This document shows positions 1,893 to 56,071 of a stretch of 64,000 nucleotides of DNA, piece by piece. The stretch spans positions 477,694 through 541,693 of the forward strand of contig NZ_KB913013.1 of assembly GCF_000383955.1 (NCBI RefSeq). Reading direction: 5' to 3'. The stretch's first letter is position 1. Each line of letters begins with the position of its first letter. The notes below the pieces were generated by a model, which was not told where the DNA came from, made no database searches, and saw only the letters and a program-made list of their open reading frames with translations. The stretch is from Rudanella lutea DSM 19387 (GTDB lineage Bacteria; Bacteroidota; Bacteroidia; Cytophagales; Spirosomataceae). Position numbers and translations under genes: made by a program.

Positions 1893-1975
1893 CCAACCAA
1901 AAACTGTAAACCCTAAACCAAAAACTGCAAACTGTAAACCGTAAACTATAAACTGTAAACCGTAAATTATAAACA
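1893..1975. repeat. Iterated-word element, family A (GTTTA.GGTTTAYAG type)
   Basis: Low-complexity stretch made of degenerate copies of a word read on the minus strand as GTTTACAGTTTA or GTTTACGG, about nine copies. It lies between the phospholipase C start and a hairpin after susD. The same word family recurs at 3581-3717 and 36064-36117. Function unknown. Confidence 0.7.
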
Positions 1976-2009
1976 CTAACTTAGGGAGGATCCAGCCTCC
2001 CCAAGTTAG
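1976..2009 (-). terminator. Hairpin downstream of susD
   Basis: Two 14-base arms (1976-1989 and 1996-2009) pair with one mismatch around a 6-base loop, 17 bases after the susD stop codon. The minus strand beyond it is T-rich (GTTTATAATTTACGG) but has no clean T-run, so it may attenuate transcription into the phospholipase gene rather than end it. Confidence 0.55.
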
Positions 2010-2025
2010 CAAACTATAGCCCAAT

Positions 2026-3561
2026 CTATTTTAAAATCCACATAGCCTGATTGAAATCGTCGCTGCCGCCGTACTGACTGGCGATCGCCTGTTTTACATT
2101 CTCGGTGTTGTAATCCAGCTCTTTCTGTGGGTACAGCCACCGCACCGGCATCTTGTTCGAAGGCGTGTTGCTGTTCGAAGCCGGGTTGATCGGGAACGCC
2201 GGGTAGCCGGTCCGCCGGTTTTCGAAAAACGCGTGGAACGGTGCCTGCAGGTAGGTACTGAGGTAGCTCTGCGTCACAATCTGCTCGATCTGCTTCTCGT
2301 TTGTACCCGCCAGTTTCACCTTATCCGAAGCCAGATACGTCGTGATGTACGCATCGGTAATCTTCATGTTGTGGTGATAGAGTGCGTTGTCGGGGGTGTA
2401 ATTCGCTGTAAACTGCATGGCCGCCCGAATTCCGTCGTTGTAATAGGTAGCCGCGGGCGTTCCCGAAATCCAGCCCCGCACAGTTGCCTCAGCAAGCATG
2501 AACTTTAGCTGCGCAAAACTCACCAGTGCAACCGGCTCGGCGTTGGCTAACTCAGTATAGCGGCTGTTGAGGGGCGAATAATCTTTAGTCGAGAAGATTT
2601 TCGTGATGTCCGAATAAATCATCGACGGATCGGTGCCTTTGTACGCGGCATAGTCGCTCATCGACTTACCGGCCGCAATCTGCACGGGTGAGGGGTTGGC
2701 GTAGTAAAACAACCGCCGGTCGTCCAGGTCTTTAAGCTTCCCGATCAGTACTTCGGACACCATCGGGTAAATGACCGAGGGATTGCCCAGCTTGAAGAAC
2801 GGGTACCGCTGACCAGCCTTATCGGAGTAAACCAGCTGGAAATTATCGGCATTGCTCTGGAAGATGGGCCGCGTGTTGACAATCTCCTTAAACCGGTCGA
2901 CTACCCGCAGGTCAGCTTCGCCTGTTTTCTTGTACAGGTTGGTCAGTACGTACAATTCAAAGGTATTGACCAGCTTGCGCCACTTCGTTACGTCGCCCCC
3001 GTACACCGGGTCACCGTCAAATTTTACGCCCTGCGCAAATAGTTTGTCAGCTTCGTCGAGCTCATTCAGAATCCCCACAAACACCTGTTTCTGGGTGTCG
3101 TACTTCGGCGCAATTACGTTCGACTCGCCTTTGAGGGCATCCGAGTACGGAATGTCGCCCACACGCATGGTCAGCTCAAAAAACTTCCAGGCCCGTACAA
3201 ACTTACCCAGTGCCGTGTACGAATTTTTATAGGCATCAGGGGGCGAAAACGAGATCATTTTCTCGACGTTAGTGAGCGTCGGCAATCCGTCGAAGCTCGC
3301 CCGGCCGAGATAATTATACTGCAAATCCTCGGCAAATTCGGTGTATATCACCGACTTACTCAGGAAATGCGGAGACAGAAACCCTTTCTGCCCGCTCACA
3401 GTCCCCTCGGTGATATTCAGAATCAGCCCCGTGGCCAGCATAGGCGCGGTAGCCCGCACGGCCGCATCGGGGTTTGAGTTAAGTTCTTCAAACTCTCCGC
3501 AGCTGCTCAGCATCAGGGCAGTCAGGCCAAAGAGCGTCAATCGTTTTATAACTGGTTTCAT
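2026..3561 (-). CDS. SusD/RagB-type outer-membrane lipoprotein (SusD-like family 2)
   Basis: Surface substrate-binding lipoprotein that caps its SusC partner. 511 residues, with a signal peptide ending in the lipobox LMLSSC (Cys near residue 21) followed by the typical GEFEELNSNPDAA opening of the SusD-like_2 (PF12771) group. Downstream segments such as SYTALGKFVRAWKFFE and FMLAEATVRGW are the usual TPR-like helices, and the length is typical. It follows susC on the same strand after about 160 bases that hold a word-repeat element. The ligand cannot be read from the sequence; the adjacent phospholipase C suggests a lipid-headgroup or phosphodiester substrate (inference). Confidence 0.92.
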   Translation of the reverse strand: MKPVIKRLTLFGLTALMLSSCGEFEELNSNPDAAVRATAPMLATGLILNITEGTVSGQKGFLSPHFLSKSVIYTEFAEDLQYNYLGRASFDGLPTLTNVEKMISFSPPDAYKNSYTALGKFVRAWKFFELTMRVGDIPYSDALKGESNVIAPKYDTQKQVFVGILNELDEADKLFAQGVKFDGDPVYGGDVTKWRKLVNTFELYVLTNLYKKTGEADLRVVDRFKEIVNTRPIFQSNADNFQLVYSDKAGQRYPFFKLGNPSVIYPMVSEVLIGKLKDLDDRRLFYYANPSPVQIAAGKSMSDYAAYKGTDPSMIYSDITKIFSTKDYSPLNSRYTELANAEPVALVSFAQLKFMLAEATVRGWISGTPAATYYNDGIRAAMQFTANYTPDNALYHHNMKITDAYITTYLASDKVKLAGTNEKQIEQIVTQSYLSTYLQAPFHAFFENRRTGYPAFPINPASNSNTPSNKMPVRWLYPQKELDYNTENVKQAIASQYGGSDDFNQAMWILK

Positions 3562-3580
3562 CGGAAATTCGGTTAAACAA

Positions 3581-3717
3581 ATGGGTTTTGGTTCCTGGTT
3601 TATGGCAACCGGGCTTCTGATGACCGAACCGGCACATCAACCGATAACCCGCTATCTGTTAGTCGCTTACTCGCTACCCACCCCATAAACTAAAAACCAA
3701 AAACGATAAACTACAGG
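3581..3717. repeat. Iterated-word hairpin element, family A, between susC and susD
   Basis: The left side carries GGTTTTGGTTCCTGGTTTATGG and the right side carries complementary words (CCATAAACTAAAAACCAAAA), so the element can fold on itself. It fills the whole gap between the susC stop (3722) and the susD start (3561) and may adjust the SusC:SusD expression ratio (inference). Confidence 0.55.
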
Positions 3718-3721
3718 TTGC

Positions 3722-6700: not shown

Positions 6701-7108
6701 GGCCGAGGGGGCAGTCTCCACAGAGCCTGTGGTTTTGGCGGGGTTAGCACCGGCCGTGAGCAGAATCCGGCCTGATACGTAATCGTACGAAACCGACAGG
6801 GGCTTGAGCAACCGGTCGAGGGTTTCGGCGAGAGTGGCCTGATTCACGTTGAGCGATACCAGCCGGTTGGGGTTAACCACCTGCCGACTGTAGGCAAACT
6901 TGACATCGGCCTGACTCTCGATCTGGGTCAACACCGTTTTCAGTTCTTTACCGTCGACTTTCAGGGTGATTCGACGCCCAAAAATCTGCTGCGACTGCCC
7001 GTCGGCAGCGAGGGCGATCTGACACAACAAGGTCAGAAAAAGTAAATGCGGGATAAGAACTCGTAGCGAAGCCCGTCGGGGCACCCACTCGTTTAAAAAT
7101 GACTTCAT
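3722..7108 (-). CDS. SusC/RagA-family TonB-dependent outer-membrane transporter with STN domain
   Basis: TonB-linked import barrel, 1128 residues. Order: signal peptide (about residues 1-35), secretin/TonB short N-terminal (STN) domain (about 47-118), carboxypeptidase-D regulatory-like domain (about 139-211), TonB box DEVVVTALG (218-226), plug (LLVIDGVPYG, DVLKGPTAAALYGSRGGSG) and a C-terminal beta barrel ending in aromatic LQLTF. An STN domain is known to pass signals to a FecR anti-sigma factor, and one lies just upstream with its ECF sigma factor, so transport and induction are probably coupled. A short hairpin lies at 7157-7178 in the 5' leader. Substrate unknown. Confidence 0.95.
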   Translation of the reverse strand: MKSFLNEWVPRRASLRVLIPHLLFLTLLCQIALAADGQSQQIFGRRITLKVDGKELKTVLTQIESQADVKFAYSRQVVNPNRLVSLNVNQATLAETLDRLLKPLSVSYDYVSGRILLTAGANPAKTTGSVETAPSADVVVTGQVKDAQTNAPLPGVNVAVKGTMRGTTTDASGNYRLSVAGSNEILIFSFIGYVTKEELVGSRTEINVTLADDQKQLDEVVVTALGVKREERSLGYAVQKVSGATLQTVKGLNVATSLTGRVSGLWVRNSTEFNEAPTLSLRGETPLLVIDGVPYGNMNLSNIPQDDIESIDVLKGPTAAALYGSRGGSGAVIVTTKRGAGSKGLTVTVNSNNMVNAGFLMLPEVQTGYSAGLGGNYDPTDYVWGAKLDIGLKAMQLNPETKQMELMELQSRGKNNFRDFLVPGMVTNNNISISQTGENGSFRASLTHIYNKGQYPNLKSNAFNFALSGDMKVGNAFTLSSQVGYNRKTAPQIFGSGYSAQGYIYNILMWMGPEYDLSKYQDYWLIPNERQNWHYKAWYDNPYMMAYEKLNGIEQNKMNANLTATLALFPGAKLIVRPGFDWYQNDETKRNPPNILSTRGWDAAGLYSLDKRSGYSFNGDAILTYNKTVGAFAVDALAGGTMYRWTDQGLYSATRGGIVIPGFYSLNNSVERPNVSTFTNRKQVNSLFAKATLSYQNRLFLDVTGRNDWSSTMPRISRSYFYPSVGGSVVISEFTDALPTWLDFWKVRGSWTMSKSDLGVYATNQTYGTVTADWDNFNSAVYPTTIRGGAVNPETNRTWEIGTSAYFLGKRFKFDAAYFDKYNYNIQRSANISSASGFTTTLINIDETYVRRGVELSLDAAVMKRANFGWDAVANYSYNHRYFKTLDPTYSAKNSWTTAGGRTDTYTGRVWVTDPTGNVVHRTNGLPLQSDYSYLYGYTDPKFVWGLSNNIRWNNFRFGVSFDGRVGGVLNNYSAFKMWDTGSHPDSDNFWRYDEVVNKNKSYVGTGVVVTSGEVKYDNFGNITSDTRQFAKNETKVSYQDYARAYGDGTRGVTNATFLKLRELSIGYNVPAAVARRFGARSATISFTGQNVWMWAKAFRFADPDKADDTQLTSPSVRYVGGNLQLTF

Positions 7109-7156
7109 AAGCGGTACTTGTTTAGGTGAAATAGGTAGGACAGTTTAGGGAAGTAC

Positions 7157-7178
7157 GTTTCGTTGTCTCGGACGAAAC
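7157..7178 (-). other. Short hairpin in the susC leader
   Basis: Perfect 7-base arms (GTTTCGT and ACGAAAC) around an 8-base loop, about 50 bases before the susC start codon. It could be a leader structure or part of a regulator site. Only the pairing is directly visible. Confidence 0.3.
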
Positions 7179-13806: not shown

Positions 13807-13863
13807 GTTAGATACTGGACACCAGACTTCGTACGGAAAATAGTCTCCCATCCAGTATCTAAC
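13807..13863. repeat. Iterated-word hairpin, family D (GTTAGATACTGGA arms)
   Basis: Perfect 13-base arms (13807-13819 and 13851-13863) enclose a 31-base loop, 14 bases from the stop codon of the oxidoreductase gene. Words resemble the larger family D elements at 30572-30673 and 47396-47496. It could act as a bidirectional terminator between convergent genes. Confidence 0.7.
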
Positions 13864-15043: not shown

Positions 15044-15186
15044 ATTGTGGGTAAACGAATGCAGGTTACGTGTAGCGATTCATTGGGCGTACTCCCACGC
15101 TATAACCGGCTAACGGCCAAAATTTACCCATTTGAGTAAGGATGAAGCATGTGTTTGAGAAGGGAGAACCCAAAAACACGCCCTCT

Positions 15187-15290
15187 AACTACACTTTGAC
15201 ATGAAAAAGCCCCAAATTTCGCTGATTTGGGGCTTTTAGACTACGCGTCGCGGACTGCGCGTCGCGGTAGGAAGTAGCAGACTTAAAACT
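15187..15290. repeat. Decayed duplicate of the tRNA 3' end plus terminator
   Basis: A 31-base sequence at 15187-15217 is identical to 15338-15368. Both copies continue into a similar hairpin (15209-15233, perfect 9-base stem, A-run on one side and T-run on the other). About 35 bases further on, TAGGAAGTAGC at 15268-15278 repeats the 3' end of the tRNA-Val gene, followed by a diverged T-arm. Between them CGCGTCGCGG occurs twice. This looks like a tandem duplication of terminator and tRNA 3' end in which one copy has decayed. Confidence 0.65.
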
Positions 15291-15354
15291 GTGGAACTAA
15301 ATCAACTACACCTATAATGGCTTGTATCTACACTTTCAACTACACTTTGACATG

Positions 15355-15389
15355 AAAAAGCCCCAAATCTGGCTGATTTAGGGCTTTTT
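15355..15389 (-). terminator. Intrinsic terminator of the tRNA-Val gene (bidirectional)
   Basis: Arms 15360-15369 and 15375-15384 pair with one non-Watson-Crick position around a 5-base loop. The stem is flanked by five A residues on one side and five T residues on the other, so it reads as a terminator on both strands. It begins two bases after the tRNA discriminator base on the minus strand. Confidence 0.8.
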
Positions 15390-15390
15390 G

Positions 15391-15465
15391 TAGGAAGTAG
15401 CGGGCTCGAACCGCTGACCTCTGCTCTGTCAAAGCAGCGCTCTGAACCAACTGAGCTAACCTCCT
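15391..15465 (-). tRNA. tRNA-Val (anticodon GAC)
   Basis: A 75-base cloverleaf on the minus strand. The acceptor arm AGGAGGT pairs with ACTTCCT (one G-T wobble) and is followed by discriminator A. The D-arm is GCTC...GAGC, the anticodon stem CTGCT/AGCAG closes loop TTGACAG with anticodon GAC, the variable loop is AGGTC, and the T-arm is AGCGG-TTCGAGC-CCGCT. CCA is not encoded. GAC reads GUC/GUU valine codons. Confidence 0.93.
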
Positions 15466-15466
15466 T

Positions 15467-15531
15467 CAACAGTGATCAACGAACAACTACCAGTGAACAG
15501 TGAATTGATCGTTGTTCGTTGATCACTGTTG
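15467..15531. repeat. Long perfect inverted repeat, family E
   Basis: Perfect 21-base arms at 15467-15487 and 15511-15531 around a 23-base loop that itself repeats AGTGAACAGTGAA-type words. It fills the gap between the tRNA 5' end and the MFS stop codon. It could end transcription of the MFS gene; no T-run follows on the minus strand. Confidence 0.8.
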
Positions 15532-15548
15532 GTTGCTCGGGGGCAAAA

Positions 15549-16894: not shown

Positions 16895-17022
16895 GTTAAG
16901 TACTGAATCAAAATCAAATGGATAATGGCCAGTGTATAATGAATAATGAACAAGCTTACAATCAGCAAAATAAACCATTATTCATTTTCCATTATGCATT
17001 ATCCACTCTGCATTCACTTAAC
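16895..17022. repeat. Iterated-word hairpin element, family C, with terminal GTTAAGT/ACTTAAC
   Basis: Left end GTTAAGT (16895-16901) and right end ACTTAAC (17016-17022) are inverted repeats. Inside, the left half has ATAATG-type words and the right half the complementary CATTAT-type words, so the element folds as a long imperfect hairpin. It spans nearly exactly from the MFS start codon to the stop of the lipoprotein gene. The left end plus the next 20 bases recur almost unchanged at 30472. Confidence 0.75.
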
Positions 17023-21517: not shown

Positions 21518-21849
21518 ACGCAACCAGCGTCATTCAATCAATGGTTAATTACGCTCAGCAGGGATAAAATGAGGCAAGAGTGTGCGGTTTTTAAGCACCT
21601 TTTAGCCGCCCGGCTTGTTATCGGTACATGCAGTAACTTTGCGTGTGCAACGGTTACCTGGTTGGTCGGCGTGGGGCATTGGTTTGCTCAACGGCTCGAC
21701 ACCTCCCTGCTACTTTATTATCTAACAGCCACTTAAGTGAATGTACAATGTAGAATGACTAATGAATAACTGGGTTACCTGTTGACAAACAGGCCTTTCG
21801 TTATACATTTCACACTGTTCATTATACATTTAATTCTGCTCCACTACTT
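21518..21849 (+). promoter_or_regulatory. Upstream region of the suf operon: promoter and word-repeat element
   Basis: About 330 bases without a gene. A Bacteroidetes -7 box TAACTTTG lies at 21634-21641 with TTG at 21615-21617 (16-base gap, slightly short). If used, the sufS leader is about 200 bases. That leader contains a family C word element (21731-21835) beginning ACTTAAGTG, with ATGTACAATGTAGAATG words on the left and ATACATT words on the right. No riboswitch was recognised. Confidence 0.5.
21731..21835. repeat. Iterated-word hairpin element, family C, before sufS
   Basis: ACTTAAGTG opens the element, followed by AATGTACAATGTAGAATGAC-type words. After a 29-base spacer, the complementary GTTATACATTTC...CATTATACATTT words follow. 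It lies in the probable leader of the suf transcript, so its hairpin could affect translation or stability of the mRNA (inference). Confidence 0.6.
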
Positions 21850-26973: not shown

Positions 26974-27064
26974 AGAGTGAAAGAGCGAATGAGTGAATGA
27001 AAAGGAGGCCTCCCTCGCACTCTTTCACTCTTTCGCTCTTTCACTCTTTCGCTCTTTCACTCAT
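26974..27064. repeat. Iterated-word element, family B (GAAAGAGT), after the SDR gene
   Basis: Begins one base after the SDR stop codon. GAGTGAAAGAGCGAATGAGTG on the left is complementary to ACTCTTTCGCTCTTTCACTC words on the right; the 15-base string at 26975-26989 has exact complements at 27032-27046. Same family as 42642-42706, 43560-43620 and 55938-55974. Confidence 0.75.
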
Positions 27065-29868: not shown

Positions 29869-30476
29869 ACGAGCTGCTCCTGCGTCTGCGCGACGAAACG
29901 CGCCCACACCATATCGAAACCGAACAACTGCTCTATACCGATGCGCTCCGGTCGGGCACCTTGTCGACCGATCAGTACCGGCACCTGTTGCTGACCCACG
30001 GCGTTTTTCATCAGGCGCTCGAAGCCGCCATCGACAACGAGCCGGCTTTTTTCTCGGACTACCGGCCCGATACCCGCCGAAAAACAGAGTGGCTTCGGGC
30101 CGATCTGGAAACCGTTCAATTGTCGCTACCTGCTTTTCCCCAACCGGTATTCTCAGGCTGGAGCCCGGTTCAACTACTCGGAGCTGCGTATGTGGGCGAA
30201 GGCTCCATGCTGGGCGGCAAAACGGTCTGGCATTATTTGGAACAAAGCGAAGCCCTGCAACCCCTGCTCCACAGTGCCCGCTTTTACCGGGGCTATGGTA
30301 TGCATACGGGGCCGTTATGGCGTGAGTTTGGCGAGTTTGCCTTTGCGCAAGGTGCCCCCGATGCCGATGCCGTTGTAGCCGCTGCCCAGCAGGCTTTTGA
30401 TTGTTACCGCAAAATCTTTGGGTATACAGCCCCTCAGGTATTTGGCCATCTCCCAGCCGATACCAGCGTGTGTTAA
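29865..30476 (+). CDS. bphO: Heme oxygenase (biliverdin-producing), BphO-like
   Basis: 203 residues. Cleaves heme to biliverdin, the chromophore of the neighbouring phytochrome. The N-terminal RDETRPHHIETEQLLYTDAL holds the candidate proximal His (H15 or H16). The distal-helix glycine motif is represented by LLGAAYVGEGSMLGGKTVW. Its ATG overlaps the receiver stop codon (ATGA). The stop TAA at 30474-30476 lies inside the terminal GTTAAGT of a family C repeat element. Confidence 0.9.
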   Translation: MNELLLRLRDETRPHHIETEQLLYTDALRSGTLSTDQYRHLLLTHGVFHQALEAAIDNEPAFFSDYRPDTRRKTEWLRADLETVQLSLPAFPQPVFSGWSPVQLLGAAYVGEGSMLGGKTVWHYLEQSEALQPLLHSARFYRGYGMHTGPLWREFGEFAFAQGAPDADAVVAAAQQAFDCYRKIFGYTAPQVFGHLPADTSVC

Positions 30477-30718
30477 GTGCTGAATCAAAATCAAATGTAT
30501 AATGTACAATGTAGAATGAATAGTGAAAGGCTGACAACCAGCACATTGAGCCTTTTTCCATTATTCATTACTGAGTACTGGACATTAGATGTTAGACATT
30601 AGACGTTAGACCTCCATATATAAAGGTAGTGAGTTTAACGTCCAGTGTCTGAAGTCCGAATGTCCAATACTGAATTTTCATTATTCACTACCCATTGTAC
30701 ATTATTCTTTCACTTAAT
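30472..30718. repeat. Family C element spanning stop codon to stop codon, with a nested family D element
   Basis: Begins GTTAAGT at 30472 (containing the heme oxygenase stop TAA) and ends ACTTAAT at 30718 (containing, on the minus strand, the stop TAA of the PAS kinase). Arms share ATAATGTACAATG and its complement. The first about 30 bases match the left end of the element at 16895 nearly exactly. A family D element (30572-30673) interrupts the right arm. Confidence 0.8.
30572..30673. repeat. Family D repeat copy 1, nested in a family C element
   Basis: 102 bases with imperfect terminal inverted repeats TGAGTACTGG and CCAATACTGA. Its interior closely matches the copy at 47396-47496, including ACATTAGACGTTAGACCTCC and CGTCCAGTGTCTGAAGTCCG. 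Two long, near-identical copies in one window point to a dispersed, once-mobile unit. Confidence 0.8.
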
Positions 30719-36057: not shown

Positions 36058-36367
36058 GGAAGGCTTAGTTTATGGTTTATGGTTTATAGTTTGTGGTTTG
36101 TGGTTTGTGGTTTTTAGCGGCCGACGCTCCGTTGTTTGGCTTGACAATCTGGACTTTCAAGGTCTTGATGATTTTGACCCAAGTTCCCCCTTGAATGCCC
36201 CGTTAGGGGCTCAGTGTGGGTAGCTAACCCGGAAACTAAACCGAATATCAGAGCCCCAAAGGGGCGTAACCCTAAACAAGTTACGCCCCTTTGGGGCTCT
36301 GATATTGGCCGGATACGTCTTTTCTGCCAACCTTCGGCGTCGGCCAACCGCGCCCCCACCCCGTCAC
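36058..36367. other. Convergent intergenic region with two repeat structures
   Basis: About 310 bases. It holds a family A word tract (36064-36117: GTTTATGGTTTATAGTTTGTGG words), a small GC-rich hairpin (GCCCCGTTAGGGGC, 36187-36200) and a very strong inverted repeat (36244-36306). No gene was seen in it. Confidence 0.7.
36244..36306. repeat. Perfect 27-base inverted repeat
   Basis: Arms 36244-36270 and 36280-36306 are exact complements around a 9-base loop, with a GCCCCAAAGGGGC core that is itself palindromic. It lies between convergent genes (thioredoxin-like, plus; safE, minus) and could terminate both. Arm length and perfection exceed normal terminators and suggest a REP-like mobile palindrome. 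Confidence 0.85.
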
Positions 36368-40071: not shown

Positions 40072-40148
40072 TAATGAACGATGATTGATGAGCGATGACC
40101 GGAAAGTGTCCGCCACAAACCACTCATCGCTCATCCCGTATCATTCGT
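40072..40148. repeat. Iterated-word hairpin, family E, inside the cco operon
   Basis: Perfect 12-base arms GATGAGCGATGA (40087-40098) and its complement (40124-40135) are extended outward by imperfect pairing (AATGAACGATGATT against ATCATTCGTTAATT). It fills the gap between the ccoNO stop and ccoQ start. A hairpin here could protect the 3' end of ccoNO mRNA or reduce read-through. Confidence 0.75.
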
Positions 40149-42346
40149 TAATTGCTGGCGGTTTCGAGTTTCTTAATGTCAGTACCTAACCGTTGCAGGT
40201 ATGCAATCAGGGCAACGATCTCCCGATCCGACTGCACCTTGATGCCTTCTTTGGCCAGACGGTCGCTGATTTCCTGCGCCTGCTTGTTCAGGTCGGCGTT
40301 GGCGTGGGCGATGGCGGTATCATCGTACGGCACCCCTACTTTGCTCAGGCCGCGCATCTTGGCCGAGGTGGTCGATACGTCGAGCTGCTGGGTCAACAGC
40401 CACGGGTAAGCGGGCATAACCGATCCGGGCGACATAGACTCGGGCTCACGCATGTGGTGGTAGTGCCACGAGTCGGGGTACTTGCCTCCTTCGCGGTGCA
40501 GGTCGGGTCCGGTGCGTTTCGAGCCCCACAGGAAGGGGTGATCGTACACAAACTCACCTGCTTTCGAGTAGTCGCCGTAGCGTTCGGTTTCTGACCGGAA
40601 TGGCCGCACCAGCTGACTGTGGCAGTTCACGCACCCCTCGCGGATGTACAGGTCGCGGCCCTGCACCTCAAGGGGTGTGTACGGCTGTACCGACGCGATG
40701 GTGGGCACATTGGACTTCACCATGAAGGTGGGCACGAGTTCGACGAGTGAGCCAATCAGGATCATCACGAGTGAGCCAACCAGCAGCGGCATAGGCTTAC
40801 GCTCAAACCAACGGTGCCAGTAGGTATCGGTACCCGTTGGGGTGTACGCTTTGGCCAAAGCGGGGGCTTCGGCGGGTTCGTTGGCCGTCAGCGAGCCGGC
40901 AGCCATCGTTTTGAAGAGGTTGTACGCCATCACGATAGCCCCGATCAGGTACAAACCGCCACCCAGGGCCCGCATTTTGTGCATGGGCAGAATCTGAAGC
41001 GTGGTTTCGAGGAAGCTTGGGTATTTGAGCACGCCATCGGGCGTAAACTCTTTCCACATCATACCCTGCGTGAAGCCTGAGATGTACATCGGCACGGCGT
41101 AGAACAGAATACCCAGCGTACCAATCCAGAAGTGCACATTCATCAGTTTTTTCGAGTGCAGCGGGGTGTGGTACATGCGTGGAATGAGCCAGTACAGAAT
41201 GGCAAACGACAGGAAGCCGTTCCAGCCCAGGGCGCCTACGTGTACGTGCGACACCACCCAGTCAGTGAAGTGCGCAATGGCGTTCACGTTTTTGAGCGAC
41301 AGCATCGGGCCTTCAAACGTGGCCATACCGTAGGCCGTCAGACCCACCACCATGAATTTCAGGATGGCATCTTCCCGCACTTTGTCCCAGGCACCCCGCA
41401 GCGTGAGCAGACCGTTGATCATACCCCCCCACGATGGCGCGATGAGCATAATCGAGAACACCACACCGAGCGACTGCGCCCAGTCGGGCAGTGAGCTATA
41501 CAGCAGGTGGTGCGGCCCGGCCCAGATGTAGATGAAAATAAGGGCCCAGAAGTGCAGAATCGACAGTTTGTACGAATACACCGGGCGGTTGGCCATTTTG
41601 GGCAGGAAGTAGTACATCATGCCCAGGTACGGGGTAGTCAGGAAGAACGCTACCGCGTTGTGACCATACCACCACTGCACGAGCGCATCCTGCACACCGG
41701 CGTAAAGCGAGTAGCTTTTGAACAGGCTCACGGGCATCTCCATCGAGTTCACCAGGTGCAACACGGCCACCGTGATAAACGTAGCGATGTAGAACCAGAT
41801 GGCTACGTACAGGTGACGCTCCCGGCGTTTGATGATGGTACCGAACATATTGACCCCGAAAGCCACCCACATGAGCGTAATGGCTATGTCGATGGGCCAT
41901 TCGAGTTCGGCGTATTCTTTCGAGGTAGTCAGGCCGAGCGGCAGGGTGATGGCGGCCGCCACAATAATGGCCTGCCAGCCCCAGAAGTGAATCCGGCTCA
42001 GCAGGTCCGAAAACATCCGGGCCTTGCACAACCGCTGAAGTGAATAGTACACGCCCATAAAAATGGCGTTGCCCACAAAGGCAAAAATGACCGCGTTGGT
42101 GTGCAGCGGCCGAATCCGCCCGAAGGTGGTGTACTGATTGCCGAGGTTGGCCGCTGGTGCAAACAACTGCGTCGCTACGAGCACCCCCACGAGCATTCCG
42201 ACAATACCCCAGATAATGGTGGCAATGGCGAAATTGCGGACAATGGCGTTGTCGTAGCTGAAATGCTCCACGTCGGGAGATTGACCTCGCCCAAGCTGGG
42301 TTCGGTCGGCTGAGATGATCGTAGGGGGTTGCTGCGAAACATTCAT
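40148..42346 (-). CDS. ccoN: cbb3 cytochrome c oxidase, fused CcoN-CcoO
   Basis: 732 residues. Catalytic subunit I occupies about residues 1-490: twelve-helix core with metal-ligand histidines in FGRIRPLHTNAVIFAFVGN, WWYGHNAVAFFLTTPYLG, WAGPHHLLYSSLPDW and THFTD-type HFTDWVVSHVHVGALGWNG. A linker and a helix lead to a CcoO-type mono-heme cytochrome c (about 530-732) with YIREGCVNCHSQLVRPF and PGSVMPAYPWL (Met ligand). In proteobacteria these are two genes; the fusion is known in Bacteroidetes. 12 bases after ccoS, same strand. Confidence 0.95.
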   Translation of the reverse strand: MNVSQQPPTIISADRTQLGRGQSPDVEHFSYDNAIVRNFAIATIIWGIVGMLVGVLVATQLFAPAANLGNQYTTFGRIRPLHTNAVIFAFVGNAIFMGVYYSLQRLCKARMFSDLLSRIHFWGWQAIIVAAAITLPLGLTTSKEYAELEWPIDIAITLMWVAFGVNMFGTIIKRRERHLYVAIWFYIATFITVAVLHLVNSMEMPVSLFKSYSLYAGVQDALVQWWYGHNAVAFFLTTPYLGMMYYFLPKMANRPVYSYKLSILHFWALIFIYIWAGPHHLLYSSLPDWAQSLGVVFSIMLIAPSWGGMINGLLTLRGAWDKVREDAILKFMVVGLTAYGMATFEGPMLSLKNVNAIAHFTDWVVSHVHVGALGWNGFLSFAILYWLIPRMYHTPLHSKKLMNVHFWIGTLGILFYAVPMYISGFTQGMMWKEFTPDGVLKYPSFLETTLQILPMHKMRALGGGLYLIGAIVMAYNLFKTMAAGSLTANEPAEAPALAKAYTPTGTDTYWHRWFERKPMPLLVGSLVMILIGSLVELVPTFMVKSNVPTIASVQPYTPLEVQGRDLYIREGCVNCHSQLVRPFRSETERYGDYSKAGEFVYDHPFLWGSKRTGPDLHREGGKYPDSWHYHHMREPESMSPGSVMPAYPWLLTQQLDVSTTSAKMRGLSKVGVPYDDTAIAHANADLNKQAQEISDRLAKEGIKVQSDREIVALIAYLQRLGTDIKKLETASN

Positions 42347-42641: not shown

Positions 42642-42706
42642 GAGCGAAAGAGTGAAAGAGTGGAATAGTGGATTATTCGCTCTTTCACTCTTTCACTCTT
42701 TCGCTC
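42642..42706. repeat. Iterated-word hairpin, family B, after the desaturase gene
   Basis: Perfect 21-base arms at 42642-42662 and 42686-42706, made of GAAAGAGTG words, around a 23-base loop. Its right edge is three bases from the desaturase stop codon. Probably a terminator or mRNA 3' end structure. Confidence 0.8.
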
Positions 42707-43559: not shown

Positions 43560-43620
43560 GTGAAAGAGTGAAAGAGCGAAAGAGCGCGTGCGTCACTCTT
43601 TCGCTCTTTCACTCTTTCAC
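43560..43620. repeat. Iterated-word hairpin, family B, overlapping the end of ccoI
   Basis: Perfect 25-base arms at 43560-43584 and 43596-43620 around an 11-base loop. The right arm overlaps the ccoI coding end: its words encode the last residues VKE and supply the TGA stop (GAGTGA on the minus strand). Confidence 0.88.
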
Positions 43621-47395: not shown

Positions 47396-47496
47396 TCAGT
47401 ACTGGGCATTAGATATTGGACATTAGACGTTAGACCTCCATGTCTAAAGGTAGTATGTCTAACGTCCAGTGTCTGAAGTCCGAAGTCCAGTACTGA
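47396..47496. repeat. Family D repeat copy 2
   Basis: 101 bases with perfect 10-base terminal inverted repeats TCAGTACTGG and CCAGTACTGA. The inside is made of GGACATTAGACGTTAGAC words on the left and complementary GTCTAACGTCCAGTGTCTGA words on the right. It closely matches 30572-30673. It lies between the DUF4442 start and the YheT-type hydrolase stop. Confidence 0.85.
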
Positions 47497-48492: not shown

Positions 48493-48508
48493 GGTGTAAG
48501 CGAAAGAG

Positions 48509-50201: not shown

Positions 50202-53200
50202 ATGTTGGATCGCATTATCTATTTTTCCATCCGTAACAAATTGATTATCGGGCTCTTTACGGCAGCCCTCGTTATCTGGGGAGGCTATTCGCTCACGCAA
50301 CTCCCCATCGACGCCCTGCCCGATATTACCAACAATCAGGTACAGGTCATCACCCGTAGCCCCGCCCTGTCGGCTACCGACGTGGAGCGGCTTATCACGT
50401 TCCCGGTCGAGCAAACGATGGCTACCCTGCCCGATCTGGTCGAAATTCGGTCGTTTTCGCGCTTTGGGTTGTCGGTGATCACCATCGTGTTTAAAGAAAA
50501 CGTCGACGTGTACTGGGCCCGGCAGCAGGTTTTTGAGCGGCTGGCGAAGGCCCGTTCGCAAATACCGCCCTCAGCCGGAGACCCCGAACTGGCTCCCGTG
50601 ACAACCGGGCTTGGCGAAATCTACCAGTACGTGGTGCAGCCCAAAAAGGGGTTTGAAAACCGTTACTCCCCCACCGAACTCCGCTCCATTCAGGACTGGA
50701 TTGTCCGGCGGCAACTGCTGGGCACCCCCGGCGTGGCCGATGTCAGCACGTTTGGCGGGTACCTCAAGCAGTACGAAGTGGCCGTCGACCCGGCCCGGCT
50801 GGCGGCTGCGGGTGTAAGCATGAACGAGCTGTTTACGGCCCTCGACCAGAATAATCAGAATGCCGGAGGGGCCTACATCGACCGGCGGCCGAATGCCTTT
50901 TTTATACGAACCGAAGGCCTGCTCACCAGCCTGGGCGATGTGGGCAGCGTGGTGGTGAAACGAACGGGCGAAGGGGTACCGGTGCTCGTACGCGACCTGG
51001 CCGAGGTGCAGATTGGCCACGCCGTGCGCTACGGCGCCGTCACGCGCAACGGCGAAGAAGAAGTGGTGGGCGCGGTGGTTATGATGCTGAAAGGCGAAAA
51101 CTCGTCGCGCGTGATTGCCAACGTGAAAGAACGGATTACGCAGATCGAGAAGTCGCTGCCCGAAGGTGTCGAGATTGTGGCCTTCCTGGACCGGACCGAC
51201 CTTGTCAACCGGGCCATCAGCACGGTATCGCGCAACCTGATTGAAGGGGCACTCATTGTTATTTTCGTGCTGGTGCTCATGCTCGGCAACTGGCGGGCGG
51301 GCGTGGTGGTGGCTTCGGTGATTCCGCTGGCCATGCTCTTTGCGGTGTCGATGATGAACCTGTTTGGGGTATCGGGCAACCTGATGAGCCTGGGGGCCAT
51401 TGACTTCGGCCTGATTGTAGACGGGGCCGTGATTATTGTCGAAGCCACGCTCCATCACCTGGCCCTACGCACCCGGGCGCTGGGCCACCGGGCCACGCTC
51501 ACGCAGGCCGAGATGGACGATGAAGTGTTTGAATCGGCCAGCCGGATCCGGTCGTCGGCCGCGTTCGGCGAGCTCATCATTCTGATCGTGTACCTGCCTT
51601 TGCTGGCGCTGGTGGGTGTAGAGGGCAAAATGTTTCGGCCGATGGCCCAAACGGTAGCCTTTGCCATTCTGGGCGCGTTCATCCTGTCGCTCACCTACGT
51701 ACCCATGCTGTCGGCCCTGCTGCTGAGCAAAAAAGTCCAGCCCGAAGGTCATCAGACCATTTCGGACCGGATCATGGGCTTTTTCCACCGCATCTACGAC
51801 CCCACGATCCGCTGGACACTGGCGCACCGGGGGCTGGTAGTGGGCACTGCTGTAGCCGCTTTCGTCGGGTCACTGATGCTCTTTTCCCGACTCGGTGGCG
51901 AGTTCATACCCGAACTCGACGAGGGCGACTTTGCTGTGGATACCCGCCTGATTCCGGGCAGCTCACTCTCTGAATCCATCGACGCGACGCTCAAAGCCGA
52001 ACGCATGCTCAAGGCTAAATTTCCTGAGGTGAAACAGATTGTGGGCAAAATTGGCGCGGGTGAGATTCCGACCGACCCGATGCCCATTGAAGCGGCCGAC
52101 ATGATGGTGATTCTGAAGGACCCGAGCGAATGGACATCGGCCACCACGATGAACGACATGGCCGAGAAAATGCACGCCGAACTCTCCCGCTTGCCGGGCG
52201 TCAGCTTTAGTTTTCAACAACCGATTCAAATGCGATTCAACGAACTGATGACCGGCATCCGGCAGGATGTGGCTGTGAAACTGTACGGCGAAGACCTCGC
52301 TCAACTCTCCGAATATGCCCGCCGGATTGGCCGCGTGGTCAGTAGCGTACCCGGTGCCACCGAACTGTACGTCGAACAGGTGTCGGGTTTGCCGCAGATC
52401 GTGATCCGCTTCGACCGGGCGGCTCTGGCCCGCTTTGGTATCGCCATCAACGACGCTAACCGACTGGTACAGGCCGCCTTTGCCGGTGCCGATGCGGGCA
52501 TGGTGTACGAAGGTGAACGCCGGTACGGGCTGGCGGTGCGCCTGCGCGAGCAAAGCCGACAGCAACTCGACGATGTGCAAAACCTTTTGCTGAGCGGAGC
52601 CAACGGGCAGGCCGTACCGCTTGGGCAGGTGGCCGATGTCCGCTTTGAAAACAGTGTCAACCAGATTCAGCGCGACAACGCCCAACGCCGGATTACGGTT
52701 GCCTTCAACGTACGGGGCCGCGACGTAGAATCGGTTGTGAACGATCTCAAAGCCCGGCTCGATAAAGAGGTAAAACTCCCGGCAGGCTATTATGTGACAT
52801 TTGGGGGGCAGTTCCAGAACCTCGAAGAAGCCCGCAAACGGCTCTCTATTGCGGTTCCGGTGGCCCTGGGGCTTATTTTCCTGCTCTTATACTTCACCTT
52901 CGGCTCACTCCGGCAGGCGCTGCTGGTTTTCATGGCTATTCCGCTGGCAGCTATCGGGGGGATATTGGCCCTGTGGGTACGCGACATGCCGTTTAGCATT
53001 TCGGCCGGGGTGGGTTTTATTGCCCTGTTTGGAGTTTCGGTGCTCAACGGGATTGTGCTCATCGGTGAGTTCAATCATCTCCGGCAAGAAGGCAACCTGT
53101 CGCTTTTCGACCGTATTCTGGCGGGTACCGCCACTCGACTACGGCCGGTGCTGATGACGGCCCTGGTTGCGTCGCTCGGCTTTTTGCCGATGGCTCTCTC

Positions 53201-54599
53201 CCAAACGGCCGGAGCCGAAGTGCAAAAACCGCTGGCCACCGTCGTGATTGGCGGCCTTATTTCAGCCACCCTGCTCACCCTGCTCGTGCTACCCTGCCTG
53301 TACTGGTGGGAGCAAAACGGATTTCGGAACCAACGGTCCACCCCAACGCCCCCGGCCGGTACAGTAGCCGTACTGTTGCTGCTGGGTCTGGTGGGGCCTA
53401 GCCTTCCGAAAGCGACCGCCCAAACGCCCGCACCGGTAACCTTGCAACAGGCGATTGATCGAGCACTGGTCAATAACGGGGCCGCCCGAATCGGCGAGCT
53501 ACAGGTGGCCTTACAACGAACCGCCCGACCTACGGCTCTGGTTGTACCCCGTACCGAAGTCACGCTCCTGAGTGGTCAATACAACAGCTACCGCTGGGAC
53601 AACAACCTGACCCTCAGCCAGACACTACCCAACTTCCGGCTCAACAACCGCTTGAGTCAACTGGCCGATGCAGGCATTCGGGGTAGCGAGCTGGCCGCCC
53701 AGGTCACCCGCAACGAGTTGCGCACGCAGGTCCGGTCGGTGTATTACCAGCTGGTGTACCTCAACGAACGCGCCCGACTACTGGGTCAGCAGGATAGCCT
53801 GCTGGTAGAGTTTCGGCGGGCTACCGATGTCCGCCGACGGACCGGCGAGGGTACAGCGCTTGAGGTTGCCACGGCCGATAACCTGCTGGGTGAAGTTCGG
53901 AATCTGGTAGCCTTGACAACGGCCGATCAGGCCATTACCCGGAACGATCTGCAAACGTTGCTCCACACGGATGCCCCGCTCACCGTAGCCGACAACGTAC
54001 TGAACCGCCGGGCCATTCCGCCCCTGTCCGACTCAGCCCTGGCTCAAAACCCAACACTGGCCCTTTTGCAGCAACAGACAACCATTGCCCAGCAACAAAT
54101 TGGCGTAGAACAGGCCCGGCTCCGGCCCGACCTGACCGTGGGCTACTTTAACCAGTCGCTGCGGGGACCGCAAACCACCGATGCCGGTCAGGAGCGTTTG
54201 TACGGGGGCGGCACCCGGTTTCAGGGCGTGCAGGCCGGGGTTTCGATTCCAATTTTTGCCAAAGCCGGCCGTGCCCGTGTGGCTACGGCCCGGCTCGAGC
54301 AACAGGTTGCTGAGGCTACGCTGACGTACAACCAACGGGTGTTGCAGGGTAGCCTGGCCTCGGCCGTGCAGGAGATCAGGAAGCAACAGGCGAGCCTCTC
54401 GTACTTTGAACAAACGGGCCTCCCCACCGCCCAACAACTGGCTGAAGGAGCCCGCAAAGCATTTCGGGCGGGTGAGATTGGCTATCTGGAGTATTCACAG
54501 GCCCTCACCCGCTCCTACCAAACCCGCACCAATTACCTCGACACAATCAACGCCTACAATCAGGCCGTGATCACGCTCGAAGGGCTGCTGGGGCAGTAA
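50202..54599 (+). CDS. Heavy-metal RND efflux pump fused to its TolC outer-membrane channel
   Basis: 1465 residues. Residues about 1-1050 are a CusA/CzcA-type pump: N-terminal RNKLIIGLFTAALVIWGGYS, AIDFGLIVDGAVIIVEATLH in helix 4 with the proton-relay acids, periplasmic TRLIPGSSLSESIDATLK, and a second helix set (GVGFIALFGVSVLNGIVLIG). After the last pump helix (LLTLLVLPCLYWWEQN) another hydrophobic segment (TVAVLLLLGLVGPSL) acts as signal or anchor. Residues about 1080-1465 are then an OEP/TolC domain (VTLQQAIDRALVNNGAA, AGVSIPIFAKAGRARV, GEIGYLEYSQALTRS). Pump and channel in one chain is known from Bacteroidetes. The adaptor gene follows. Confidence 0.94.
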   Translation: MLDRIIYFSIRNKLIIGLFTAALVIWGGYSLTQLPIDALPDITNNQVQVITRSPALSATDVERLITFPVEQTMATLPDLVEIRSFSRFGLSVITIVFKENVDVYWARQQVFERLAKARSQIPPSAGDPELAPVTTGLGEIYQYVVQPKKGFENRYSPTELRSIQDWIVRRQLLGTPGVADVSTFGGYLKQYEVAVDPARLAAAGVSMNELFTALDQNNQNAGGAYIDRRPNAFFIRTEGLLTSLGDVGSVVVKRTGEGVPVLVRDLAEVQIGHAVRYGAVTRNGEEEVVGAVVMMLKGENSSRVIANVKERITQIEKSLPEGVEIVAFLDRTDLVNRAISTVSRNLIEGALIVIFVLVLMLGNWRAGVVVASVIPLAMLFAVSMMNLFGVSGNLMSLGAIDFGLIVDGAVIIVEATLHHLALRTRALGHRATLTQAEMDDEVFESASRIRSSAAFGELIILIVYLPLLALVGVEGKMFRPMAQTVAFAILGAFILSLTYVPMLSALLLSKKVQPEGHQTISDRIMGFFHRIYDPTIRWTLAHRGLVVGTAVAAFVGSLMLFSRLGGEFIPELDEGDFAVDTRLIPGSSLSESIDATLKAERMLKAKFPEVKQIVGKIGAGEIPTDPMPIEAADMMVILKDPSEWTSATTMNDMAEKMHAELSRLPGVSFSFQQPIQMRFNELMTGIRQDVAVKLYGEDLAQLSEYARRIGRVVSSVPGATELYVEQVSGLPQIVIRFDRAALARFGIAINDANRLVQAAFAGADAGMVYEGERRYGLAVRLREQSRQQLDDVQNLLLSGANGQAVPLGQVADVRFENSVNQIQRDNAQRRITVAFNVRGRDVESVVNDLKARLDKEVKLPAGYYVTFGGQFQNLEEARKRLSIAVPVALGLIFLLLYFTFGSLRQALLVFMAIPLAAIGGILALWVRDMPFSISAGVGFIALFGVSVLNGIVLIGEFNHLRQEGNLSLFDRILAGTATRLRPVLMTALVASLGFLPMALSQTAGAEVQKPLATVVIGGLISATLLTLLVLPCLYWWEQNGFRNQRSTPTPPAGTVAVLLLLGLVGPSLPKATAQTPAPVTLQQAIDRALVNNGAARIGELQVALQRTARPTALVVPRTEVTLLSGQYNSYRWDNNLTLSQTLPNFRLNNRLSQLADAGIRGSELAAQVTRNELRTQVRSVYYQLVYLNERARLLGQQDSLLVEFRRATDVRRRTGEGTALEVATADNLLGEVRNLVALTTADQAITRNDLQTLLHTDAPLTVADNVLNRRAIPPLSDSALAQNPTLALLQQQTTIAQQQIGVEQARLRPDLTVGYFNQSLRGPQTTDAGQERLYGGGTRFQGVQAGVSIPIFAKAGRARVATARLEQQVAEATLTYNQRVLQGSLASAVQEIRKQQASLSYFEQTGLPTAQQLAEGARKAFRAGEIGYLEYSQALTRSYQTRTNYLDTINAYNQAVITLEGLLGQ

Positions 54600-54600
54600 A

Positions 54601-54735
54601 TGATTGAGCGGGGCGCGCAGCCTGATTGAGCGATTGAGCGGGCGCGCAGTCTGATTGAGTGCATCAAACTCACTGTTCATTCTGCATTATCCATTACTCA
54701 TTGTTCATTATCCATTACCCATTATCCATTACGAA
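54601..54735. repeat. Composite word-repeat region before czcB
   Basis: Two copies of TGATTGAGCGGG(G)CGCGCAG at 54602-54654, followed by about six CATTATCCATTA-type words (54668-54732). A similar composite follows the same gene at 55938-56071. The tract lies between the pump stop and the adaptor start. Confidence 0.65.
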
Positions 54736-54746
54736 CAATTCCGTCC

Positions 54747-55943
54747 ATGAACTATATAGCCATTGCCCTGATACTTACCCTTCCCTTCGCCTGTAAGCCG
54801 AAAACTGAGTCGGGGGAGAGTACCGATAAACCGACAACCGAAGCCACTGCCCAAACCCCGGCGGATTCGGCCGAGGCCCCTTCCGACGAAGTACTTCTGA
54901 CAGCCGATCAGATTCGGCTCGCGGGTATCGCCACGGGTCTGGTTGAGTACCGCAATCTGAGCCAAACCCTCGCCCTGAACGGCCGGGTGGTAGCCAGTGC
55001 GCAAAATCGGGTCTCTATTTCGGCCCTGCAAGGCGGCTTTGTCCGTCAGATTACCTTATTGCCGGGCCAACGGGTTCGGAAAGGACAAGTGCTCGCTCGG
55101 GTCGAAAACCCTGATCTGATTCAGGTGCAGCAGGACTACGCCGAAAACCGCGCCCGCCTGACCTATCTGGAAGCCGAATACGCCCGGCAGCAGGAACTGA
55201 GCCGCGAAAACGTGGGGGCCCTGAAAGTATTTCAGCAAACTAGTTCGGACCTCAACGCGACCCGCGCCCGCCTGAGCGCCCTGGCCCTGCGCATCCGTCG
55301 GCTGGGCCTCTCGCCCGAATCGGCCACCAAAGGGCAGTTTACGAGTACCTATACCGTCAGCTCACCCGTCAACGGCGTTGTGACCGAGGTACCGGCTAAT
55401 CTGGGCCAATACGTACAACCCGCCGACGTACTAGCGCAGCTGGTCGGCACCGATCAATTGTTTGCTGAACTGACAGTTTTTGAAAAAGACCTACCCCTTG
55501 TGCGGGAGGGCCAACGGGTGCGCGTGCGACTGGCGGGGGCAGGCCGGGGCGAACAAACGGCCCGGATTTATCTCATCAACCGCAGCATCGACACCGACCG
55601 CTCGGTTCGGGTGCTGGCCCGGTTTGAGGGGGGCTCCGCGGCCGCCACCATGCCGCCCAACGCGTTTTTACAGGCCGTTGTGGAGCTGGGAGCCAACCGC
55701 TCACCCGCTCTCCCCGAAGGTGCCATCGTGTCGTCGGAGGGGAAGGAGTATATTTTTGTCGCACAGGCTCCGCACGGTAACAATACCTCTTACAAGGCCC
55801 TGCCCATTCGCCGGGGCGTTACCGAAGATGGGTATTCGGGCGTGGTGCTACCCGCCGGTTTCGACCCGGCCCAAACACCCGTGGTTGTCAAAGGTGCCTA
55901 CGCCATTCTCTCGCAATGGAAAGGCGGAGGGGAGGAAGAGTGA
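54747..55943 (+). CDS. Periplasmic adaptor of the metal RND pump (CzcB/CusB-like)
   Basis: 398 residues. Lipoprotein signal with LPFAC (Cys near residue 16) and an acidic linker. The adaptor core has QNRVSISALQGGFVRQITLL with GQRVRKGQVLARVENPDLIQ, the coiled coil at about 125-195, YTVSSPVNGVVTEVPANLGQ with YVQPADVLAQLVG, and a beta-barrel part. No C-terminal metallochaperone domain. Its stop TGA is formed by the GAGTGAAAGAGC words of a family B repeat that starts at the gene end. Third gene of the efflux locus. Confidence 0.92.
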   Translation: MNYIAIALILTLPFACKPKTESGESTDKPTTEATAQTPADSAEAPSDEVLLTADQIRLAGIATGLVEYRNLSQTLALNGRVVASAQNRVSISALQGGFVRQITLLPGQRVRKGQVLARVENPDLIQVQQDYAENRARLTYLEAEYARQQELSRENVGALKVFQQTSSDLNATRARLSALALRIRRLGLSPESATKGQFTSTYTVSSPVNGVVTEVPANLGQYVQPADVLAQLVGTDQLFAELTVFEKDLPLVREGQRVRVRLAGAGRGEQTARIYLINRSIDTDRSVRVLARFEGGSAAATMPPNAFLQAVVELGANRSPALPEGAIVSSEGKEYIFVAQAPHGNNTSYKALPIRRGVTEDGYSGVVLPAGFDPAQTPVVVKGAYAILSQWKGGGEEE

Positions 55944-56071
55944 AAGAGCGAAAGAGTGAAAGAGTGGAGTGCGTTGCTTTATTGAGTGAATGAGCGGGGC
56001 GCGTAGCCTGACTGGGCAGGTCAAACGCGTTACGCATTATCCATTCCTCATTATCCATTACGCATTCCCAT
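55938..56071. repeat. Composite word-repeat region after czcB
   Basis: GAAAGAGTG words (55938-55974) that include the czcB stop codon, then GAGCGGGGCGCGTAGCCTGA (55992-56011), then CATTATCCATTCCTCATTAT-type words to 56071. The middle and last parts parallel the region before czcB in the same order. It separates convergent czcB and the hybrid kinase gene, which ends four bases further on. Confidence 0.65.

Follow-up and report, generated by a model that had tools for sequence, protein, structure and literature searches.

The 64,000-nucleotide stretch of the Rudanella lutea genome analysed here (the window, G000:C1:477694-541693; genome 6.55 Mb in 4 contigs, G+C about 55%) contains 17 listed tracts at its gene boundaries that are built from short words repeated with drift, and that a sequence-only reading had sorted into five word families, A to E. 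Our analysis confirms the observation itself, and we hold with moderate confidence that these tracts are intergenic inverted word arrays, in which arms of 7- or 8-bp words surround a short core and single arms are partial forms, with families D and C transposing and families A and B being rewritten in place. The five families have no one common origin: D resembles a miniature inverted-repeat transposable element (MITE), C probably does so too, and B and perhaps A are word arrays that stay in place and behave as if evolving in concert. The dictionary of family B words differs between sister species genome-wide and also at the same loci.

Word arrays in the gaps between genes

The periodicity of intergenic DNA was examined in the window plus the next 400 kb (a 464-kb set with 360 genes called by a simple codon-score script, with no annotation pipeline; 86% coding, 61,642 bp intergenic), a stretch being counted as periodic when at least 17 of 28 positions match themselves at a given lag. 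Of the 290 intergenic stretches, 47 are periodic at lag 7 (1.8 in shuffles, none in coding controls) and 21 at lag 8 (1.6 in shuffles, 2 in coding controls). Lags 5 and 10 stay near background, and lag 4 shows a mild excess (11 vs 2.4); at lag 9 the excess is greater in coding controls (13) than in intergenic stretches (7). Adding a second 400-kb stretch gives an 864-kb set, in which the intergenic DNA (92,433 bp, gaps of up to 700 bp) holds 120 periodic segments and the gene interiors (689,841 bp) hold only 4. Inverted repeats with a score of at least 28 occur in 62 of 264 intergenic stretches (gaps of up to 900 bp) and in none of the shuffles.

Each of the 17 listed tracts was scored for its lag period and for inverted repeats against the best of 100 dinucleotide shuffles (Table 1). 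The claimed period is confirmed in 16 of them, at lag 7 for families A, C, D and E (18-25 per 28) and at lag 8 for family B (20-25); thus the iterated-word tracts exist as described, far above shuffles and nearly absent from gene interiors. The remaining tract, 13807-13863, had been listed as an iterated D tract and carries D-like ends only. The typical layout is a core flanked by two inverted arms of degenerate words. Complementary words had been said to follow in most tracts, and the comparison with shuffled DNA proposed at the time bears this out for the 11 tracts whose hairpins exceed their best shuffle; one further tract (21731-21835) ties with it, and five are single arms that lack a hairpin. 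Perfect arms of 21 and 25 bases, as reported earlier, are recovered at 15467-15531 and 43560-43620. The predicted RNA hairpins are strong, with fold z-scores down to -12.6. At the gathering score, Rfam has no match in the 64-kb window except the tRNA at 15391-15465. By eye, the word hairpins have no T-run, and a plain terminator-like hairpin adjoins the word element in some convergent gaps.

In the 864-kb set, a segment is present in 60 of the 333 co-directional gaps, in 15 of the 78 convergent ones and in 6 of the 92 divergent ones. The statement that the tracts are never inside genes holds broadly, with arms entering gene ends by 1-12 bases (30472, 43560, 55938 and 40072). Contact with gene 3' ends, also claimed, gives an incomplete picture: a 3' end is no more than 3 nt away for 38 of 112 segments, and a 5' end is equally close for 16 of 95; many segments start at a stop codon and some finish at the next start codon. 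Accumulation at gene boundaries may reflect the tolerance of insertions there.

The orientation of the segments is also biased. Within 15 nt of a gene end the outward strand is the G-rich one in 70 of 82 segments (10 are C-rich outward and 2 equal), and this is seen at both 3' ends (47 G, 7 C, 1 equal) and 5' ends (23 G, 3 C, 1 equal). Farther out, C-rich segments prevail at 3' ends (15, against 7 that are G-rich), and at 5' ends 13 are G-rich, 2 C-rich and 1 equal. The arm with G-words comes first in all 36 two-arm loci (B 10, A 7, C 19), arms being recognised by word lists that were chosen after sight of the sequences. A strict rule that the 5' arm is G-rich was considered and reduced to a strong tendency, which is reversed in segments far from 3' ends and broken by family E. 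An outward G-rich strand would place words with TGA, TAG or TAA beside the gene, that is, stop codons at the boundary. In operon gaps the word arrays would form mRNA hairpins, which may or may not have a regulatory role, and we treat the arrays as probably mostly selfish or neutral.

Families D and C

Family D spreads by transposition, as a 102-bp MITE-like element that makes target duplications of about 9-10 bp and often inserts into older C and A arrays. A search with 47396-47496 places D elements at no fewer than 40 distinct sites (40 of 79 candidates scored). Both ends, TCAGTACTGG...CCAGTACTGA, are present in 28 of the 30 copies fetched, with at most 3 mismatches each, and 25 of these 28 two-ended copies are 102 bp long, the others being 88, 95 and 101 bp. 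Target duplications with at least 7 matching nucleotides flank 20 of the 28 copies, compared with 5 of 756 control pairs of mismatched flanks. Empty sites were found by eye in both directions between the genome of the window (G000) and its sister species (G001): G001 is empty where G000 carries D at r2 334065-334392, and G000 is empty where G001 carries D at r1 83127-83251. About 12 of the 30 copies lie, by eye, inside C or A arrays.

Family C is likely a second MITE-like family. It is dispersed, with at least 57 matches, some of which are the same place on both strands (40 of 116 candidates scored), and 19 copies compared by eye follow one end-to-end consensus, which runs between TTAAGTGAATG and GACTACTTAA around a GCTGATAATCAGC core. 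A single empty site, at r1 116847, would fit a duplication of TAA. An exact 19-mer search with family C words gave no match, in our opinion because the C words drift. A match to a transposon family, which the sequence-only reading had named as evidence that would tell against it, is therefore found in kind for one or two of the five families (D and probably C).

All families might be MITEs with heptamer or octamer terminal inverted repeats, the differences between species being recent subfamily bursts in the same tolerant gaps. This is true for D and likely for C, and the D insertions in older arrays mean that arrays can serve as landing pads. As an account of all five families we nevertheless consider it rather unlikely, mainly on the evidence from family B given below.

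A second form of mobility, that of repetitive extragenic palindromic (REP) or REPIN elements moved by the Y1 (RAYT) transposases of the genome, seems hardly credible. There are 4 Y1_Tnp matches in G000 and 2 in the sister species, and L257 has two A-like words upstream. However, the 260-nt flanks of 12 of the 18 Y1_Tnp genes in the genus show no word hairpin by eye, several having other palindromes such as CCCCGTAGGGG types, and D makes target duplications, which REP transposition is, to our knowledge, not known to do. As a separate observation, L257, L259, L261 and L265 are Y1_Tnp (RAYT-like) genes that lie amid REP-like palindromes (for example TTTACCCCGTAGGGGTTTGCGGTTAATAG and AACCCCAACGGGGTT), which vary from gene to gene.

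Families A and B between sister species

The cores of family B have no mutual similarity. Among 21 cores, taken from loci with at least two words per arm and a core of up to 90 nt, the mean score of the 210 pairs is 5.1, compared with 4.8 in shuffles, and a single pair reaches a score of 10 or more, compared with none. The arms are near-identical octamers despite these unrelated cores. Family B therefore does not have the shared core plus ends of a MITE family, with a subset of loci seeming to share a GC-rich insert.

A similar GC-rich insert is present between B arms at L207 (GCCGAACCGGTGCGCCGGAGCGACGGCCCGC), at r1 94182 and r1 99497 in G000, and at the G001 ortholog of r1 69112. In addition, B-like words at 54602-54659 and 55975-56014 are broken by GGGGCGCGCAGCCTGATTGAGC-type units, with a 29-bp direct repeat at the first; this may be a B subfamily with its own insert.

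The arm words of family B fall into a GAGYGAAA type and a GAGYGAWT type. Counted across whole genomes as overlapping exact 19-mer matches, and not as loci, the two types number 102 and 23 in G000, 9 and 92 in G001, 8 and 45 in G002, and 1 and 30 in G003; reversed-pattern controls for B words are zero in all four genomes. The sister species G000 and G001 are 87.6-94.3% identical in the aligned blocks listed, or about 90%. Across 150 genomes of the family, the first type occurs in 27 and the second in 74, and within genus g4 the balance ranges from 143/17 (G148) to 20/62 (G105). Other words are patchy: GTTTAYR words occur in 27 of the 150 genomes and AGTTAAG/AGTGAAG-like words in 18, the latter pattern having sizeable control counts in a few genomes.

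The same switch is seen at some orthologous gaps. Nine pairs of orthologous gaps carry at least two B words in both species, and in four of them one species has the GAGYGAAA type and the other the GAGYGAWT type. The remaining five comprise two pairs that are mixed in one species and of one type in the other, one pair with the first type in both, one with the second type in both, and one that is mixed in both. Seven further gap pairs have at least two B words in one species only. Because the cores are dissimilar while the arm dictionary switches between species, we favour a common process over descent from a single sequence for family B. The earlier suggestion that unrelated words sharing one architecture point to such a process thus fits family B, and fails for D and probably for C.

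These findings bear directly on the possibility that every family is a MITE. Copies of one MITE should share a core, yet the B cores are unrelated and their arm words near-identical; the switched B loci have the same neighbouring genes in the two species, and r2 79883-79969 keeps a core that is recognisable as inverted. No target duplication was evident by eye in the B copies examined. On the other side stands the one B subfamily that seems to share a GC-rich insert.

The genome-wide word switch, together with the G-first order of the two-arm A, B and C loci, also prompted the idea of template-directed writing, in which a telomerase-like or other polymerase adds G-rich words at breaks, two ends are joined head-to-head, and the word is templated in trans. 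The arms of C, which are independent in detail, and the unrelated B cores would suit such a process. The idea has mostly lost its support, and we consider it very improbable: a search of four genomes of the genus (one of them only 71% complete) gave no RVT_1 match, the control search being positive in 3 of 14 known genomes, and the arms resemble each other more within loci than between loci in both A (p 0.009) and B (p 0.0185). Moreover, family E breaks the polarity, and polarity within a family can stem from descent.

Comparison of the two sister genomes shows what changes in place. A G001 ortholog was paired with 343 of the 384 G000 gaps tested, and an element is present in both species in 61 of these, in G000 only in 18, in G001 only in 7 and in neither in 257. 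Among clean indels of at least 5 bp (gaps of up to 600 bp), lengths of 7, 8, 14 or 21 bp account for 23 of the 42 inside arrays and for 19 of the 57 elsewhere. Hairpin cores could be compared in 41 of 79 element pairs, the others being without a hairpin of score 20 or a usable core length; with the best hairpin per gap and a margin of 3, 23 cores align better directly and 4 better inverted, not all significantly. At a cut of 10, inversion is seen in 3 of the 41 orthologous pairs (214916, by 13/13, 79883 and 103140), compared with 14 of 1640 non-orthologous pairs. A fourth inverted core was found by eye at 196212 (score 19.1 when inverted and 6.0 when direct, with 13 as the best of 200 shuffles), where the best hairpin of the gap is not the word hairpin. 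Locus 74910 was also considered as an inverted core and, being weak (p 0.075), was excluded from the count. In word hairpins (gaps of up to 330 bp, each locus taken in both directions), two-sided changes at paired sites number 19 against 5.1 expected, and 16 of them keep the pair. Arrays in place thus often differ by whole words, a few of their cores are inverted, and compensatory arm pairs are above chance.

In the literature, whole-word changes, core inversions and compensatory pairs are described as traces of slippage and of template switching by DNA polymerase at inverted repeats that match imperfectly. Within families A and B, the hairpin would be kept by slippage and by template switching between the arms, and exchange among dispersed arrays with common words, by ectopic template switching or short-tract conversion, would spread new words, with the result that the favoured word could switch genome-wide. 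A bolder proposal, which we offer only tentatively, is that Bacteroidota carry active hairpin-writing, in which boundary arrays are rewritten in place from a species-wide dictionary, dozens of them evolving and switching their word in concert, and in which the word would be set by ectopic template switching among arrays or by a trans factor. If true, this would mean that scattered non-coding hairpins in bacteria evolve in concert with no transposition of whole copies.

Several points weigh against reading the tracts as inverted word arrays that transpose in D and C and are rewritten in place in A and B. Plain hairpins have a larger compensatory excess (36 vs 4.9) than word hairpins, and ordinary selection on RNA might account for part of the covariation. 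Outside arrays, too, indels of 7-8 bp are frequent (16 of 57). There are only about four inversions, 14 of the 41 cores are clear in neither orientation, and the hairpin tested in a gap is sometimes not the word hairpin. The exchange of words between loci is deduced indirectly, from the dictionary switch. Transposition is demonstrated for D and is not shown for A, B or E; no transposase is assigned to C or D, for which no search aimed at a gene with such ends was made. Finally, two C arms from one locus resemble each other no more than arms from different loci do (p 0.66).

Similar periodicity is found in other genera, in scans that ignore gene calls and with taxon groups built from record titles. 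In 80 named loci pooled, lag 7 is found 61 times, compared with 6-16 times for lags 5, 8, 10, 11 and 13, and codon-phase lags 31-38 times. Per megabase, lag 7 occurs 101 and 92 times in G000 and 88 times in G001, whereas 200 kb of Escherichia coli, scanned in the same way, has none at lag 7 and one at lag 8. The corresponding values are 192 for Larkinella (36 kb), 221 for Siphonobacter (18 kb; other lags 28), 84 for Flavobacteriales (other lags 21), 36 for Chitinophagales, 28 for Sphingobacteriales, 5.5 for other Cytophagales, 50 for Ignavibacteria (other lags 15) and 43 for Verrucomicrobiota (2 matches).

The gap between ccoNO and ccoQ, which is filled by a word hairpin in the window, was compared across genera. 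The nearest named relatives of the window's ccoNO protein are two Larkinella genomes, with 86% identity. With the downstream gene defined as the first frame that opens with ATG and has 38 codons or more, this gap is 30 nt or shorter in 66 of 80 loci; it carries a word hairpin in 5 (two Larkinella, Siphonobacter, Pontibacter and Flavisolibacter) and a plain hairpin in 2 more. The hairpin words differ among these genera and from those of the window, which points to repeated gain of the same architecture in one tight gap. The presence of differently worded elements in this gap in several genera would also be expected if all the families were MITEs.

Parallel gains in one operon gap are likewise expected if the hairpins are maintained by selection in mRNA, as intercistronic stabilisers, processing sites or reinitiation bridges, with a word-reading trans protein driving the genome-wide matching. 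The strong predicted folds and the compensatory excess at paired sites agree with this explanation, as does the rarity of segments in divergent gaps (6 of 92, compared with 75 of 411 co-directional and convergent gaps), and the word switch would suit a changed binding specificity. We nevertheless judge it unlikely. Pairs are broken on one side about as often as in plain hairpins or more often (83 of 1243 vs 73 of 1580), 5 of the 17 listed tracts are single-armed, and cores and words turn over; we know of no reader protein for the array words, and avoidance of harm equally predicts rarity between divergent promoters. The system suggests how compensatory-looking changes in hairpins may arise by mutation and not by selection, and it cautions that covariation at such sites need not imply a functional RNA.

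Listed tracts and comparison with known systems

Table 1. Word tracts listed in the window (lag values are self-matches per 28; shuffle max is the best of 100 dinucleotide shuffles)
Position	Family and type	Observations
1893..1975	A, single arm, AAACNNT heptamers (complement of GTTTANR type)	lag 7 = 23/28; inverted repeat 10 vs shuffle max 14
3581..3717	A, two separated arms, long core	lag 7 = 19; inverted repeat 25 vs shuffle max 20; RNA fold z only -1.8
36064..36117	A, single arm, GTTTRTG heptamers	6 nt past stop codon; lag 7 = 25; TRF period 7; no hairpin
26974..27064	B, octamer hairpin (GAGYGAAA)	starts at stop codon; lag 8 = 25; inverted repeat 27/29
42642..42706	B, octamer hairpin adjoining cbb3-operon genes	lag 8 = 23; arms 26/28; sister-species ortholog has GAGYGAWT-type words
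43560..43620	B, octamer hairpin, perfect 25-bp arms	RNA dG -42.7, z -9.3; ortholog words switched; last 12 nt within gene 3' end at 43609
55938..55974	B, single arm	gene stop codon inside first word; lag 8 = 20; no hairpin
16895..17022	C element, GTTAAGTACTGAATC...CATTCACTTAAC	arms 24/30
21731..21835	C element, opposite orientation	lag 7 = 18; inverted repeat 22 = shuffle max
30472..30718	C element split by D element	arms 25/30; overlaps coding sequence by 10 nt; both convergent genes end in TTAAGTG termini
54668..54732	Single arm (listed under C), CATTATC heptamers	14 nt upstream of start codon; lag 7 = 23; no hairpin
56031..56071	Single arm (listed under C), CATTNNN heptamers	3 nt from gene 3' end; lag 7 = 18; no hairpin
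13807..13863	D-like palindrome GTTAGATACTGGA...TCCAGTATCTAAC, without iteration	arms 13/13; lag 7 = 13
30572..30673	D element, MITE-like, about 102 bp, nested in C element 30472-30718	90% identity to 47396-47496; CATTATTCA at both junctions
47396..47496	D element, MITE-like, TCAGTACTGG...CCAGTACTGA	flanking TCTTGGT duplication; also present in sister species
15467..15531	E, hairpin (AACAGTG/AACGAAC words)	perfect arms 21/21; z -11.0; 5' arm not G-rich
40072..40148	E-like hairpin (ATGAGCG words) filling ccoNO-ccoQ gap	lag 7 = 18; inverted repeat 24 vs shuffle max 20; 14 bp of words differ from sister species

Other features of the window and its surroundings include two apparent gene fusions. 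An open reading frame of 1465 aa at 50202-54599 (+) has matches to ACR_tran (AcrB-type pump) as well as OEP (outer-membrane efflux protein) and looks like a fusion of pump and channel, and a single open reading frame at 40148-42346 (-) matches COX1 and FixO, an apparent CcoN-CcoO fusion of the cbb3 oxidase. At 1976-2009, a near-perfect hairpin, CTAACTTAGGGAGG-ATCCAG-CCTCCCCAAGTTAG, adjoins the A-type arm and is close to the 3' end of the gene at 2026; it is terminator-like, without a clear T-run. A CAACTACACTTTGACATGAAAAAGCCCCAAAT-like segment with a GGGGCTTTT-type hairpin occurs twice at 15044-15548, flanking a GACTACGCGTCGCG repeat beside the tRNA gene. Palindromes based on ACAGGATTACAGGATAAACAGGATT at region coordinates 73396, 124427 and 364890 (DNA of L001-L020) represent a further dispersed family of iterated hairpins, with 8-9-bp units, outside the five listed.

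The statement that no named class matches these tracts was too strong, as intergenic heptamer repeats have been described in cyanobacteria, Beggiatoaceae, Xanthomonas and some Bacteroidetes. The cyanobacterial repeats are known as STRR. Tandem 7-bp intergenic units of the STRR/TAACTGA type are present in our tracts, with units of 8 bp in family B, and in a comparison by eye only, the words differ from TAACTGA, GGGGATT and the like.

A close parallel is the TAACTGA type of intergenic heptamer repeat in Beggiatoaceae, cyanobacteria and some Bacteroidetes (MacGregor 2015, PMC4679880). These repeats likewise have a 7-bp unit, are intergenic, and are placed close to start codons or between stop codons; further likenesses are that some genomes mix heptamers, that close strains differ by 7-nt indels, and that five Bacteroidetes carry such repeats. 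They differ in having one word, mostly as direct repeats sense to the start codon, with one indirect repeat in the main genome, whereas the present arrays have many words, inverted and strongly polar arms, core inversion and a word switch at the species level. The GGGNATC/GGGGAYT heptamers of Xanthomonas and Nostoc (PMC4692102) share the intergenic over-representation and the variation in length and sequence between close species, and an inverted pair is shown there; they consist of a single type of G-quadruplex word and have been studied chiefly as lone arrays. The same source describes heptamer repeats as over-represented in many bacterial genomes and little studied, cites a 2007 survey in which heptamers were over-represented, and reports a hypothesis that links 7-bp units to polymerase slippage.

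In the P6b stem of the cyanobacterial tRNA-Leu intron (PMC4476775), each side carries 7-nt repeats, which are gained or lost on one side or on both; that stem occupies a single intron site and is not dispersed in the genome. The BrickBuilt MITE of Porphyromonas gingivalis (PMC4596501), a small intergenic element with inverted-repeat ends, one form of which has a minisatellite, resembles D and probably C. It has 23-nt direct repeats between leader and tail, whereas the arms described here are arrays of 7- or 8-bp words, and family B is without a shared core. Prokaryotic satellites (PMC6749651) and structure-related sequence features of prokaryotic genomes (PMC4060949) have also been treated, and in the stem-loop family paper PMC2267715 the five terms sought do not occur. 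Among the matches listed in a search of the open-licence literature, none concerned inverted heptamer or octamer arrays across Bacteroidota or a word switch at the species level.

With regard to mechanism, template switching between inverted repeats leads to arm homogenisation and spacer inversion (PMC8604942), it can create and maintain hairpins (PMC8794818), and small inversions bounded by hairpins are found in chloroplast DNA (PMC12928735). The likeness to our arrays lies in the homogenised arms and inverted spacers at short inverted repeats. The difference is that these papers describe a general mutational process, which here would act on word arrays dispersed in a bacterial genome. A dense system with a sister genome of about 90% identity allows gain, slippage, core inversion and word switching to be traced at orthologous sites, and makes the mechanism directly testable. 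Thus, heptamer repeats, MITEs and template switching are already known, and what is new is a set of unusually dynamic word hairpins with a switch of words at the species level.

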